Virus record (IMG/VR): IMGVR_UViG_3300006875_000114
Span: 1 to 27,908 of that record
Source: a virus
Length of the DNA stretch: 27,908 bases
Direction: 5' to 3' (one strand)
Positions 4,936 to 27,908 of the stretch are shown one piece after another (the first letter of the stretch is position 1; each line of letters starts with the position of its first letter). The translations under genes and the position numbers were made by a program. The notes under the pieces were generated by a model. It had not been told where the DNA came from. It searched no databases and was given only the letters and a program-made list of their open reading frames with translations.

Positions 4936-5272
4936 GTGTCACGGGTGTGACGAGGAGCAGCTGAAAGACGAAGCCCTCTTGCAAAGAGTGATGGAAGACG
5001 GAGCTGTTTTCGCTCGTGCTGAGGTTCTCCATAGTTACTTCCATAAGTTTGATCAGGGAGAGGGAGTTACCGGCGTGGTTGCTCTGGCTGAATCACACAT
5101 ATCCGTTCATACTTGGCCGGAACATCGTTACATGGCTGTGGATATCTTTATGTGCGGAGACTGTAACCCATACGACACTTTCGATTACATCATCACCAAC
5201 ATGGTTATCGGTGAATACAGCGTTGATTGTATTGATCGCGGGTCTGAATATACGAACTTACATAACGTATAA
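4907..5272 (+). CDS. speD: S-adenosylmethionine decarboxylase proenzyme (SpeD/SpeH type)
   Basis: AdoMet decarboxylase makes decarboxylated AdoMet, the aminopropyl donor for spermidine. The proenzyme self-cleaves to form a pyruvoyl group. At 121 residues it has the usual length of the short bacterial class. With GTG 4907 as start, the cleavage site is Glu62-Ser63 in AESHISVHTWPE, with His68 and Cys83 (DIFMCGDCNP) exactly where the Thermotoga-type enzyme has Ser63, His68 and Cys83. All key residues are present, so it should be active. The N-terminus MPLGRHVILECHGCD also matches the family. It overlaps the upstream gene; a T4-type late promoter sits across its stop. Phage speD genes are known in cyanophages. 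Role: raising spermidine for DNA packaging or host physiology (inference). Confidence 0.95.
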   Translation: MPLGRHVILECHGCDEEQLKDEALLQRVMEDGAVFARAEVLHSYFHKFDQGEGVTGVVALAESHISVHTWPEHRYMAVDIFMCGDCNPYDTFDYIITNMVIGEYSVDCIDRGSEYTNLHNV

Positions 5273-9338: not shown

Positions 9339-10022
9339 ATGTTATTTGCTTTTCGTAATTTTAAAAGAAATAAAATGGTTAATTTATCAGCTATTAGTAT
9401 AAAGCATTTCATACCAGATGCTGAAATTTTTTGTATAACTTTTTATGAAAATAGTCCAAATGAATATGATGATCAAGAGCCTCTTTTGCCTTTTATTACT
9501 GAAAAAAAAGTAAAAACAAAATATCCTAATACTAATGGCAAACCTCATGATCATCCAGATGTAAATGCAACAAGCGGAGAAGGAAATCCTGACACTACAA
9601 AATTTTTCTCTGAAGGTTATAATGAAATATGGAATCTATTAAAGCATAGAGAAGAAAAAGTTTTAATGTTAGGAGAAGATTGTTTTTTTACAACCGGAAA
9701 AGTTTTAGAAGAATTGATACAAAATCAAAATTCTTATGCAGTTGCTTTTGGTTCTTGGTGCTGGTGGGGGTATGAAGAAAAGTGGGCAAACGCTACCTGT
9801 ATTTGTTTTGATTTAAAACTTTTAAATGGAATATTTCCAATTTCCGAAGAAGGGCCAGCATTTATAGAAGCTCATTTATACAATATATTAACTAGAATTC
9901 CACCTGAATATAGATATTCTATAAAACATAGAACATTTGAAAATTATCATGGAGATGGTATAAGAACAAATTCTTCTTTAGCAATTGAAAATGAACTTAA
10001 AAAAGCAGGTATATTGAGATAA
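9339..10022 (+). CDS. conserved protein, possibly glycosyltransferase-like
   Basis: A 227-residue protein from ATG 9339, behind AAGGA. The N-terminus (a basic loop, then LSAISIKHFIPDAEIFCITFYEN) looks like the first strand-helix-strand of a GT-A-type fold. VLMLGEDCFF near residue 110 is placed like the acidic metal motif of such enzymes. It continues with a Trp-rich stretch (SWCWWGYEEKW) and a C-terminal NYHGDGIRTN motif. It follows the gmd/colD-like pair by 11 bases and shares their AT-rich composition, so transfer of a deoxysugar is a reasonable guess. I have no catalytic proof, and a virion-associated role is possible. Confidence 0.55.
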   Translation: MLFAFRNFKRNKMVNLSAISIKHFIPDAEIFCITFYENSPNEYDDQEPLLPFITEKKVKTKYPNTNGKPHDHPDVNATSGEGNPDTTKFFSEGYNEIWNLLKHREEKVLMLGEDCFFTTGKVLEELIQNQNSYAVAFGSWCWWGYEEKWANATCICFDLKLLNGIFPISEEGPAFIEAHLYNILTRIPPEYRYSIKHRTFENYHGDGIRTNSSLAIENELKKAGILR

Positions 10023-10027
10023 ATATA

Positions 10028-10056
10028 TGTACAAGATTTGTTGATGGTGTTATAAT
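10028..10056 (+). promoter_or_regulatory. early-type promoter of the tmRNA (TGTACA-N17-TATAAT)
   Basis: TGTACA at 10028-10033, a 17-base spacer and a perfect TATAAT at 10051-10056 give the same layout as the early promoter modules. The start site would fall near 10058-10064, right at the first tmRNA nucleotides. A GATAAATA word at 10018 is only a weak late-promoter lookalike. Confidence 0.75.
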
Positions 10057-10093
10057 AGGTCTGTTGGACGCGGGTGCGAATCCCGCCACCTCC

Positions 10094-10164
10094 ACCTAAG
10101 TATACTGGCGTAATATGGCACTCTAAAGCCTAAAAACGAAATCTGTGTTCCAGTATACTTAGGT
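10094..10164 (+). repeat. tmRNA intervening segment with 15-bp inverted repeat
   Basis: ACCTAAGTATACTGG (10094-10108) is the exact reverse complement of CCAGTATACTTAGGT (10150-10164). It continues directly into the acceptor stem, so the precursor would have a 22-bp helix (10087-10108 with 10150-10171) closed by a 41-nt loop. This is the part removed between the mature 3' end of the acceptor piece and the mature 5' end of the coding piece. Confidence 0.9.
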
Positions 10165-10271
10165 GGGGGTGTTATAGATTCGACAGCGGATTGAAAGAAC
10201 ACCGGAGAATCGGCAATGCGAAAGCCGTTAGGATTGGGATTTCCCGGTCGAAGAAGCAAAAAACTATAAAT

Positions 10272-10316
10272 GCCAATGATGACATTTATGAGCAGGAGTA
10301 TGCTCTAGCAGCATAA
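10272..10316 (+). other. tmRNA proteolysis-tag reading frame
   Basis: Resume codon GCC at 10272, then AAT GAT GAC ATT TAT GAG CAG GAG TAT GCT CTA GCA GCA and TAA at 10314-10316. The 14-residue tag ANDDIYEQEYALAA starts AND and ends in the ALAA degradation signal read by ClpXP/ClpA. The AND start and EYALAA end resemble alphaproteobacterial tags. Confidence 0.93.
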
Positions 10317-10331
10317 CCTCTCTGGGGTTTC

Positions 10332-10370
10332 GCCACCTGTCCTTATCACCCAATCAGGTGGCACTCTTAA
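10332..10370 (+). terminator. hairpin at the 3' end of the tmRNA coding piece
   Basis: GCCACCTG (10332-10339) pairs with CAGGTGGC (10355-10362), eight pairs with a 15-nt loop. The following ACTCTTAATATTT is only moderately T-rich. It may be the last helix of the coding piece, a terminator, or both. A smaller hairpin AACCTC/GGGGTT overlaps the tag stop codon (10315-10329). Confidence 0.5.
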
Positions 10371-10387
10371 TATTTGGACACTATATC

Positions 10388-10813
10388 ATGGAGACTCACT
10401 CGCGTAAGCGAGATAAGAAAATTCTCGACTTCCTTTCAAAAGCTGCCGAAGCAGCGGATCACGTAGGAATACGTGCTAAGCTTGCTGCTGCAGTTGTCAT
10501 TAAAAATGAGATCATATCGATTGGATTTAATCGAAGAAAGACTCACCCTTTTCAAGCTCAGTTTCAAGCAAACGATAAGCAGATTTATCTTCATGCTGAG
10601 AATGACGCCATCAATCGTGCTTTAAAGTACATTACAAAAGAAGAACTTAAGAAAGCTACTCTATATGTAGCTAGGGTTAAGTATCGAGATAACAAAACAA
10701 AGAAAGCTATTTGGGCTGAAAGCAAACCATGTTCTGGTTGCCAGAAAGCTATCCATTCTCATGGAATCAAGACTGTTGTTCATACGTATTCAGAAGGATA
10801 TAAATATATGTAA
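10388..10813 (+). CDS. zinc-dependent cytidine/deoxycytidylate deaminase-like protein
   Basis: A 141-residue member of the cytidine/dCMP deaminase superfamily. The zinc motif is complete: H69-A-E71 (YLHAENDAINRAL) supplies one ligand and the proton-shuttling glutamate, and P114-C115-S-G-C118 supplies two cysteines. The likely reaction is dCMP to dUMP, feeding ThyX downstream, but tRNA or other nucleotide deamination cannot be excluded. ATG 10388 is preferred; the frame stays open to 10358, but that start lies inside the tmRNA hairpin. Its 3' end contains an exact late promoter word that serves the next gene. Confidence 0.8.
   Translation: METHSRKRDKKILDFLSKAAEAADHVGIRAKLAAAVVIKNEIISIGFNRRKTHPFQAQFQANDKQIYLHAENDAINRALKYITKEELKKATLYVARVKYRDNKTKKAIWAESKPCSGCQKAIHSHGIKTVVHTYSEGYKYM
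10799..10806 (+). promoter_or_regulatory. T4-type late promoter (TATAAATA)
   Basis: An exact TATAAATA, encoded within the last codons of the deaminase gene (Y-K-Y-M), lies 30 bases before the next start at 10836. It is well placed to open the late gene block that follows. Confidence 0.7.
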
Positions 10814-22830: not shown

Positions 22831-23567
22831 TGATTCTTGATGGTGAAGAAATGTGGGCTAGTGAAGTGATCGATAAGCACTCAAAGCGACCTGTTAAGTT
22901 GGTTAGCTACTCAAAAATCGACGACGACTACGCGTATTCTGTAGAAGTTGATCGTGGGGTTAGTTGTGAAGAACTAATCGCATTTTGTGCTAGGGTAAGC
23001 AATCCAAGTAACCAAAGTAATGTACAAACTTCTGAAAAATTGATACAATACCTTGTAAAGAACAAACACTGGTCTCCTTTTGAAATGGTTACTGTTTGTC
23101 TCGAGATCTCTACAACAAGAGATATAGCAAGGCAGATTCTTAGACACAGATCATTTTCATTTCAGGAATTTAGCCAGAGGTATGCTAATCCTGTCGATGA
23201 ATTGACTTTTGAAGTTAGAGAAGCGCGTCTTCAAGACAATAAAAATAGACAGAATTCTATAGAAGTCAATGATGAAGTACTTCATCATAACTGGATCACG
23301 TTTCAAGAAGAGATTATACAGTACACAAAACACGCATATGAATGGGCTATCAATAATGGTATCGCCAAAGAAGTAGCAAGAGCTGTTCTTCCTGAAGGAT
23401 TAGTTATGTCAAAGATATACATGAGCGGAACTATTCGTTCATGGATTCATTATCTTGAAGTAAGAACAGATCAGTCAACACAAAAAGAACACAGAGTAAT
23501 AGCACAGCAGTGTGCTAATGAATTGAGTGTAGTCATTCCAAACATAATTAAGAATCTTATCAAGTAG
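22830..23567 (+). CDS. thyX: flavin-dependent thymidylate synthase
   Basis: Makes dTMP from dUMP with FAD, NADPH and methylene-tetrahydrofolate. The 245-residue protein carries the ThyX motif R105-H-R-S-F-S-F-Q-E-F-S-Q-R-Y118 (RHRxxSxQExSxRY) exactly, and HWSPFE upstream. ATG 22830 overlaps the primase stop; a GTG five codons earlier is possible. Together with NrdA/NrdB and the deaminase at 10388, it completes a route to dTMP. An early-type promoter word lies inside it (23021-23049). Confidence 0.95.
   Translation: MILDGEEMWASEVIDKHSKRPVKLVSYSKIDDDYAYSVEVDRGVSCEELIAFCARVSNPSNQSNVQTSEKLIQYLVKNKHWSPFEMVTVCLEISTTRDIARQILRHRSFSFQEFSQRYANPVDELTFEVREARLQDNKNRQNSIEVNDEVLHHNWITFQEEIIQYTKHAYEWAINNGIAKEVARAVLPEGLVMSKIYMSGTIRSWIHYLEVRTDQSTQKEHRVIAQQCANELSVVIPNIIKNLIK
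23021..23049 (+). promoter_or_regulatory. possible internal early-type promoter inside thyX
   Basis: TGTACA (23021-23026), a 17-base spacer and TACAAT (23044-23049) match the early module consensus exactly, about 540 bases before nrdA. It may boost nrdA/nrdB. Being within a gene, it could also be chance. Confidence 0.4.
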
Positions 23568-27510: not shown

Positions 27511-27521
27511 ATATCCATAAT

Positions 27522-27598
27522 CTGCCCATAGCTCAGCTGGATAGAGCAACAGCCTTCTAAGCTGTTGGTCGGGGGTTCGAGTCCCTCTGGGCAGGCCA
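27522..27598 (+). tRNA. tRNA-Arg (anticodon TCT)
   Basis: A complete cloverleaf of 77 nt. Acceptor CTGCCCA/TGGGCAG, D-stem GCTC/GAGC, anticodon arm ACAGC-CTTCTAA-GCTGT with TCT, T-arm GGGGG-TTCGAGT-CCCTC, discriminator G and encoded CCA. It reads AGA and AGG, codons common in the AT-rich genes of this phage. Confidence 0.95.
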
Positions 27599-27604
27599 AA
27601 CAAT

Positions 27605-27689
27605 GCCTCGGTGGTGGAATAGGTAGACACAAGGGACTTAAAATCCCTCGCTTAATTGCGTGCCGGTTCGAGTCCGGCTCGAGGTACCA
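27605..27689 (+). tRNA. tRNA-Leu (anticodon TAA)
   Basis: 85 nt, with the long variable arm expected for leucine. Acceptor GCCTCGG/TCGAGGT with two G-U pairs, anticodon arm AGGGA-CTTAAAA-TCCCT, T-arm GCCGG-TTCGAGT-CCGGC, encoded CCA. It reads TTA and TTG. Confidence 0.95.
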
Positions 27690-27704
27690 AATTTGATGAA
27701 TAAC

Positions 27705-27780
27705 GCTCCAGTAGCTCAGGGGTGAGAGCAGACGGCTTATATCCGTCCGGTCGGTGGTTCAATTCCATCCTGGAGCACCA
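27705..27780 (+). tRNA. tRNA-Ile (anticodon TAT)
   Basis: 76 nt. Acceptor GCTCCAG/CTGGAGC, D-stem GCTC/GAGC, anticodon arm GACGG-CTTATAT-CCGTC with TAT at the anticodon, T-arm GGTGG-TTCAATT-CCATC, encoded CCA. It reads ATA. Bacterial TAT-isoleucine tRNAs are uncommon; most bacteria use a lysidine-modified CAT tRNA instead. Confidence 0.9.
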
Positions 27781-27789
27781 AATGTAATA

Positions 27790-27866
27790 GGGCCTTTAGC
27801 TCAATTGGTCAGAGCAGGTGACTCATAATCACTTGGTTGGGGGTTCAAGTCCCTCAGGGCCCACCA
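27790..27866 (+). tRNA. tRNA with CAT anticodon, probably tRNA-Ile2 (lysidine type)
   Basis: 77 nt. Acceptor GGGCCTT/AGGGCCC with a normal first pair (so not an initiator), anticodon arm GGTGA-CTCATAA-TCACT, T-arm GGGGG-TTCAAGT-CCCTC, encoded CCA. The overall wording (CCTTTAGCTCA, GGTGACTCATAATCACTTGG) is closer to tRNA-Ile2, whose C34 is changed to lysidine by host TilS to read ATA, than to elongator Met. Confidence 0.85.
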
Positions 27867-27870
27867 ATTT

Positions 27871-27908
27871 AGGGATATGGTGTAATGGCAGCACAGCAGA
27901 CTTTGACT
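27871..27908 (+). tRNA. tRNA-Gln (anticodon TTG), truncated by window end
   Basis: The 5' part of a tRNA: acceptor strand AGGGATA, D-arm and GCAGA-CTTTGAC with anticodon TTG. The window stops inside the anticodon arm, so the 3' half is outside. It reads CAA and CAG. Confidence 0.75.

Follow-up and report, generated by a model that had tools for sequence, protein, structure and literature searches.

A permuted two-piece tmRNA gene in a T4-like phage, with a putative late promoter and signs of exchange between phages

Why would a phage carry a tmRNA gene, when in infection would it be read, and how did the gene reach its place? These questions are raised by a virus record of 27,908 bases (IMG/VR IMGVR_UViG_3300006875_000114; this whole stretch of DNA is called the window), in which an original prediction, made from the sequence alone, had placed a circularly permuted two-piece tmRNA under an early promoter. 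The neighbouring genes are T4-like and comprise dCMP deaminase, primase, thyX, nrdA, nrdB, a cytidylyltransferase, a virion protein and S-adenosylmethionine decarboxylase. Relatives of a 389-aa protein encoded downstream occur in 460 phage records, which with few exceptions belong to cyanophages, the rest including Pelagibacter and Methylophilales phages. This gene content points to a T4-like, Kyanoviridae-like phage. A search of the phage collection found no close relative of the window at the DNA level and no match to the 227-aa protein encoded upstream of the tmRNA. The window also carries, at 2375-2863, an ORF built of 18-nt repeats (hexapeptide-like units).

Identity, fold and 3' end of the RNA

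The region 10035-10316 matches the Rfam model of permuted tmRNA (RF04321, tmRNA_permuted) at 115.3 bits, against a gathering threshold of 47 (E = 3.9e-22), which is the covariance-model check that the original prediction had proposed. ARAGORN likewise calls a permuted tmRNA (tmRNA*) at 10005-10407 with the tag ANDDIYEQEYALAA, and the only other Rfam matches at E <= 1 in 9700-10700, apart from further tmRNA models, were two weak ones (mir-2006 and rsmX). By both ARAGORN and the sequence, the acceptor/T-arm piece lies upstream of the 5'/coding piece. The two meet in a seven-pair acceptor stem (10087-10093, CACCTCC, with 10165-10171, GGGGGTG), whose third pair, G10167-U10091, is of the alanine type and is invariant in all 22 aligned phage sequences. 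The tag frame is open, starts with the alanine resume codon GCC and has a degradation-type end. The permuted order, the stem, its G-U pair and the tag are all as originally described. The acceptor piece had been placed at 10058-10096, of which the 3' part holds; its start moves to about 10035 on the P2 pairing of the RF04321 alignment, in which 10035-10039 pairs with 10205-10209 and 10048-10051 with 10199-10202. Judged by its sequence, the window RNA is a real permuted two-piece tmRNA, far beyond chance. The alphaproteobacterial two-piece model scores 70.3 bits (gathering 50) and the betaproteobacterial one 71.5 bits, under its own gathering threshold of 84, and between these two subtypes there is no clear winner as to the bacterial source (Table 1).

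Table 1. Positions and properties of the features at and around the tmRNA gene of the window
Feature	Position	Strand	Remarks
Upstream ORF, 227 aa	9339..10022	+	Without PHROG match; shares 75% identity with the ORF that precedes the L120 tmRNA
T4-type late promoter motif NATAAATA (GATAAATA)	10018..10025, core 10019-10025	+	Overlaps the upstream ORF's stop codon; transcription expected to start ~10031
Early-promoter string TGTACA-N17-TATAAT	10028..10056	+	Mostly inside the acceptor piece; probably not the promoter
Acceptor piece	10035..10096	+	5' strand of P2, T-arm 10070-10086, acceptor 3' strand 10087-10093, discriminator A10094, CC; RF04321 alignment
tmRNA cassette	10036..10371	+	96.1% identical over 336 nt to G017 (L025), sharp ends, flanks unrelated
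Intervening sequence	10097..10164	+	Continues the acceptor stem into a hairpin
Coding piece	10165..10366	+	Acceptor 5' strand 10165-10171, P2 3' strand, tag, 3' hairpin; 3' end approximate
Tag reading frame	10272..10316	+	ANDDIYEQEYALAA plus TAA; ARAGORN
3' hairpin	10332..10362	+	GCCACCTG/CAGGTGGC, cassette end, without U-run, z = -2.0
dCMP deaminase	10388..10813	+	Downstream neighbour; order same in L120, L123, L126
tRNA cluster Arg-Leu-Ile-Met and truncated fifth gene	27518..27908	+	90-97% identical to the cluster of the L025 phage

Conservation of the fold was assessed on 22 phage sequences (acceptor plus coding pieces), hand-picked from 53, which include the window, the phage Melnitz and one Stenotrophomonas phage and omit L025, a near-duplicate of the window. 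The 53 derive from 76 permuted calls, with five unparsed (L077, L119, L160, L225 and L228) and duplicates merged. The RNAalifold consensus has 26 pairs, and 17 of these show changes in both partners. Paired cells amount to 94.7%, against 80.9% in shuffled alignments, and the covariation score is 0.408; shuffles give 0.152, and sliding the structure by 1-3 columns gives 0.070 at most, a control that is generous to the consensus because the structure was derived from the same alignment. With the structure in the window's own register, the outer two helices are paired in just 46% and 23% of cells, since MAFFT sets the window one column off there. By this covariation, the tmRNA is under selection as an RNA, with covarying helices joining its two pieces.

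The intervening sequence and the acceptor stem together form an uninterrupted 20-bp hairpin stem (-40.1 kcal/mol, z = -8.1); around 10332-10362, no terminator-like site was found on the + strand. The 3' CCA is incompletely encoded in the window, where ACC is followed by T10097, and the same holds for L025 and L092. Most kin have ACCA facing TGAT; in the window and L025, ACCT faces AGGT, so that the hairpin is kept though the encoded CCA is lost, and L092 has ACCT with AGTT facing. Such an end might be expected of a non-functional passenger or pseudogene derived from a host or prophage, a reading that we consider extremely improbable. Neither the helices nor the tag frame are disrupted; the L025 copy varies in the tag region yet keeps the frame and an ALAA end; the change at the CCA has its counterpart on the other strand of the hairpin; and an RF04321 match above the cut-off was kept in all 24 phage records tested, each chosen for a permuted tmRNA already called there by ARAGORN. 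The absence of an encoded CCA is not defining by itself, because CCA can be added after transcription, and we infer that the CCA of a working window tmRNA must be completed post-transcriptionally.

A putative late promoter and the early-promoter string

The original prediction set the gene under the early promoter string at 10028-10056. With 10 of 12 matches, this string is the best sigma-70-like site in its 1.6 kb, a stretch that holds 7 such sites against 5.9 +/- 2.1 in shuffles. Its hexamers also match the phage's own early module: the pattern TGTACW-N15-18-TAYAAT occurs nine times in the window against 0.16 expected, seven of the matches being the module at 201-2363 and the two extra copies lying at 10028 and at 23021 (inside thyX). 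The module itself, TGTAC(T/A)TA(A/T)TTTCA...TA(T/C)AAT followed by an ATG/ribosome-site leader, is repeated in the stretch 201-3380, which is richer in GC, and its copies precede a series of small genes there. At the tmRNA the hexamers alone match, with TTTCATA... and the ribosome site missing, and the full module was found in none of the other loci compared. Moreover, because the acceptor piece begins at about 10035, TATAAT (10051-10056) lies inside the RNA, and a start at about 10063 would drop 10035-10051, the P2 strand that takes part in two helices with the coding piece and ties the two pieces together. The tmRNA of L025, 96% identical, keeps the TATAAT letters but not TGTACA. We therefore rejected this string as the main promoter, and the early placement gives way to a late-type motif at the offset seen in kin.

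This motif, GATAAATA at 10018-10025, lies about ten bases ahead of the 10035 edge of the acceptor piece, that is, at promoter distance from the 5' end; its core NATAAATA is described as the late promoter motif of the cyanomyovirus S-PM2 in the part of the source available (PMC2984593). Among 57 unique upstream sequences of phage permuted tmRNAs, ATAAATA stands 41-51 nt before the T-arm in 17, Melnitz included, against a mean of 0.30 and a maximum of 4 in 500 dinucleotide shuffles, and 0.26 at random positions in the same loci; by eye, these 17 carriers form about eight groups of relatives and are not 17 independent cases. The 57 comprise 52 unique sequences from 71 anchored ones among the 76 permuted calls, plus five anchored by hand, with the window (L001) counted and L119, probably a false call, retained. 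The other 40 upstreams are without the motif at that offset, and NATAAATA is absent at the matching offset in L025 (nearest copy 106 nt upstream), HTVC008M and Mosig; L025 may use a promoter before speD. Elsewhere in the window, six of the ten other + strand copies stand 15-75 nt before a gene start, where 0.94 are expected (9.4% of positions; p = 1e-4), on a gene list drawn up by hand, and the motif is the best of 21 anagrams in this comparison.

Two readings would place expression earlier. A TTGAC-N16-20-TA box overlaps NATAAATA in 9 of 15 anchored carrier upstreams, and that of Melnitz reads TTGACA-N17-TATAAATA, a sigma-70 box overlapping the late motif. This overlap would suit middle-type expression, with host polymerase reading the gene early and the gp55/gp33 polymerase late from overlapping promoters as in kin, the sigma-70 half having degenerated in the window. 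For cyanomyoviruses, the available part of PMC2984593 discusses early promoters that overlap late ones. In the window, L048 and three further members of the dCMP deaminase locus (L084, L089 and L120), however, the late motif stands alone, with no overlapping TTGAC/TA box, and we hold middle-type expression of the window gene to be rather unlikely. The same box could be taken in favour of a tmRNA read as an early gene from the TGTACA string and tagging host proteins for recycling. Early expression with tagging of host proteins was proposed, as a guess, for the Melnitz tmRNA, whose promoter its authors called early with a sigma-70 predictor, as far as the consulted text goes (PMC9004378). In the kin, though, the sigma-70 box lies upstream of the RNA and not within it, and for the window we judge this reading improbable, given the position of its -10 and the loss of its -35 in L025. 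Early tagging of host proteins is thus less favoured by the promoter evidence, as read from sequence.

Spread of the gene and its exchange between phages

One T-arm/acceptor string retrieved at least 119 loci from viral contigs, and for 119 loci among the matches listed ARAGORN called 59 permuted tmRNAs, 40 one-piece tmRNAs and 20 none. The exact string with G at T-loop position 2 occurred in 15 bacterial contigs only, each with a one-piece call by ARAGORN. Among isolates, RF04321 matched Stenotrophomonas phage Moby (118.6 bits), Acinetobacter phage BUCT628 (123.9) and the Xanthomonas phages X1 (76.6) and Rb1 (103.4); the bacteria Stenotrophomonas, Xanthomonas and Acinetobacter have a one-piece tmRNA of their own. 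The permuted tmRNA of Moby (L227, 68083-68349) is unannotated, and the small CDS inside it, CPT_Moby_106, is probably spurious. No tmRNA is annotated in the records of the permuted-tmRNA phages HTVC008M (L225, 145161-145370), X1 (L228), BUCT628 (L230) and Rb1 (L231).

The gene occupies different loci. In 20 of 36 loci, the window among the 36, the tmRNA lies downstream of an exonuclease gene (names taken from GenBank records) and is followed by a cell-wall-hydrolase-like gene (read by eye) or by relatives of gp33, gp59 or gp32. In four it precedes dCMP deaminase: the window, L120, L123 and L126. In L120 the bases about 100 nt upstream of the tmRNA resemble the 3' end of the SIS-isomerase-like gene (named by eye) found ahead of the tmRNA in L123 and L126, although a different gene occupies that place in L120; this trace is a sign that upstream genes were swapped while the motif and the tmRNA stayed. 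Directly downstream of the L126 tmRNA lies an HNH-type endonuclease-like ORF (2583-3212, - strand; by eye), a possible means of mobility.

Likeness of the tmRNA does not follow likeness of the phages. L120 is the syntenic relative of the window, with neighbour proteins mostly 70-80% identical (one 50%), NrdB 92% and NrdA 79%. Its tmRNA is 87% identical to that of the window in the acceptor piece, 63% in the intervening sequence and 56% in the 5' part of the coding piece, and its tRNAs, where they match, are just 82-89% identical. By contrast, L025 (G017; IMGVR_UViG_3300005805_000273, a contig of 32.8 kb) carries its near-identical tmRNA, whose tag is ANDDIYEMEYALAA, at another locus next to speD, with phoH, exonuclease and speD upstream. 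Between the whole window and the whole L025 contig, BLASTN matches are confined to the tmRNA, three stretches of tRNA genes and a 135-nt part of speD (76%), and one of the 15 window proteins tried had a match, SpeD (59%). The window's own S-adenosylmethionine decarboxylase gene lies at 4907-5272, and its homologue stands directly upstream of the tmRNA in L025. The tRNA stretches are 95%, 97% and 90% identical, spacers included, with Arg, Leu, Ile and Met in the same order; a fifth tRNA gene at 27870-27908, cut by the window end, matches the tRNA-Gln of the L025 contig. Between the window and L025 the intervening sequence is identical at 67 of 68 positions, although it varies freely in other relatives, and even strong constraint on RNA genes alone is therefore insufficient to account for the likeness. 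We infer that an exchange of tmRNA and tRNAs took place between two dissimilar phages, probably within a single host.

An assembly chimera was considered and is unlikely, as gene content and order on either side agree with those of L120. Yet one contig of this virus (L121/L122; L122 is IMGVR_UViG_3300006030_000172) begins inside the tmRNA, at about window position 10256, which would fit a cassette that is repeated in that sample.

More broadly, we propose, tentatively and at a little under an even chance, that translation RNAs form a mobile pool common to T4-like aquatic phages. Two-piece tmRNA cassettes, late-expressed and about 340 bp long, and tRNA blocks would move between unlike phages and loci apart from protein genes, probably via a shared host, and two-piece tmRNAs of this kind would also have arrived in phages that infect Stenotrophomonas, Xanthomonas and Acinetobacter. 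No report of late promoters of phage tmRNAs or of tmRNA exchange between phages was found in a literature search whose reach mostly stopped short of subscription papers. Both the late-promoter reading and the exchange are, as far as that literature goes, additions to published knowledge.

Proposed role and comparison with known systems

Taken together, the evidence makes it likely that the window encodes a functional two-piece tmRNA of a T4-like phage, transcribed late, recycling ribosomes with host SmpB and gained by exchange. The gene would be transcribed late from GATAAATA at 10018, along with the dCMP deaminase gene that follows it. RNase P would cleave before G10165 and host nucleases would take out the intervening sequence, after which the CCA-adding enzyme would complete the ...ACC end and AlaRS would charge the tmRNA. 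Host SmpB and EF-Tu would then carry it to ribosomes caught on broken mRNA; this would recycle the ribosomes and mark truncated late proteins for ClpXP-type proteases. The gene itself would have come into this locus by exchange with a phage carrying the same tRNA set. Late in infection, T4-like phages produce structural proteins from mRNAs at a time of mRNA breakage, so rescue would free ribosomes and remove truncated virion proteins; for the window tmRNA, ribosome rescue is a plausible role.

SmpB was found in none of 29 related phage records (the control was positive in 10 of 14 genomes), many of which are fragments, and as the window is itself a fragment, its phage could encode SmpB elsewhere; on this count, these phages should rely on host SmpB. 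The same lack would also fit a decoy RNA drawing SmpB away from host tmRNA, the role suggested for the mycobacteriophage DS6A gene, which has no tag, and a DS6A-like RNA inhibits E. coli tmRNA according to the available portions of two sources (PMC4131195, PMC11915505). DS6A, however, has the tRNA-like part only, whereas the window keeps a whole tag frame with ALAA, and an AA end is found in 33 of the 35 distinct permuted tags from L002-L120, so that a decoy seems very improbable here.

If the preferred reading of a late, ribosome-recycling tmRNA is right, phage-borne trans-translation RNAs, common in aquatic T4-like phages, are likely part of the late programme and not of the early one put forward in the literature, and pass between phages along with tRNAs as translation modules fitted to the host. 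Late ribosome recycling and early tagging of host proteins are directly testable as alternatives with cultured phages, such as Melnitz.

Two-piece tmRNAs are already known from phages, and the window gene is one more of them. In the accessible part of one survey, 53 of 133 unique phage tmRNA structures are two-piece, 50 of those 53 being marine or aquatic (PMC9004378); 79 bacteriophage sequences are counted in the part consulted of another (PMC11915505). The permuted architecture is common to the window and the bacterial two-piece tmRNAs (Rfam alpha, beta and cyanobacterial models). In one-piece phage tmRNAs the gene order is uninterrupted. These too are phage-borne, as in mycobacteriophages such as Bxz1 and in Bacillus phage G, by the available text of PMC4131195. 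Closest in kind are Melnitz (MZ577097, a Methylophilales phage) and the pelagimyophages Mosig and HTVC008M, which share with the window a permuted two-piece tmRNA in a T4-like, Kyanoviridae genome, an alanine-type stem and a degradation-type tag. The kinship originally suggested, with two-piece ssrA of SAR11 and OM43 myophages, is borne out by what was seen of PMC9004378, where a host transition was inferred from the alphaproteobacterial ssrA and tRNAs of Melnitz. In these three phages ssrA lies between exonuclease and gp33/gp59 and CCA is encoded, whereas the window gene precedes dCMP deaminase and encodes ACC-U; Melnitz also has a glutamine riboswitch, for which the window gave no Rfam match at E <= 1 in 9700-10700. 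Melnitz and the window nevertheless share a late-type motif upstream of the tmRNA (TATAAATA in Melnitz), at a similar offset.
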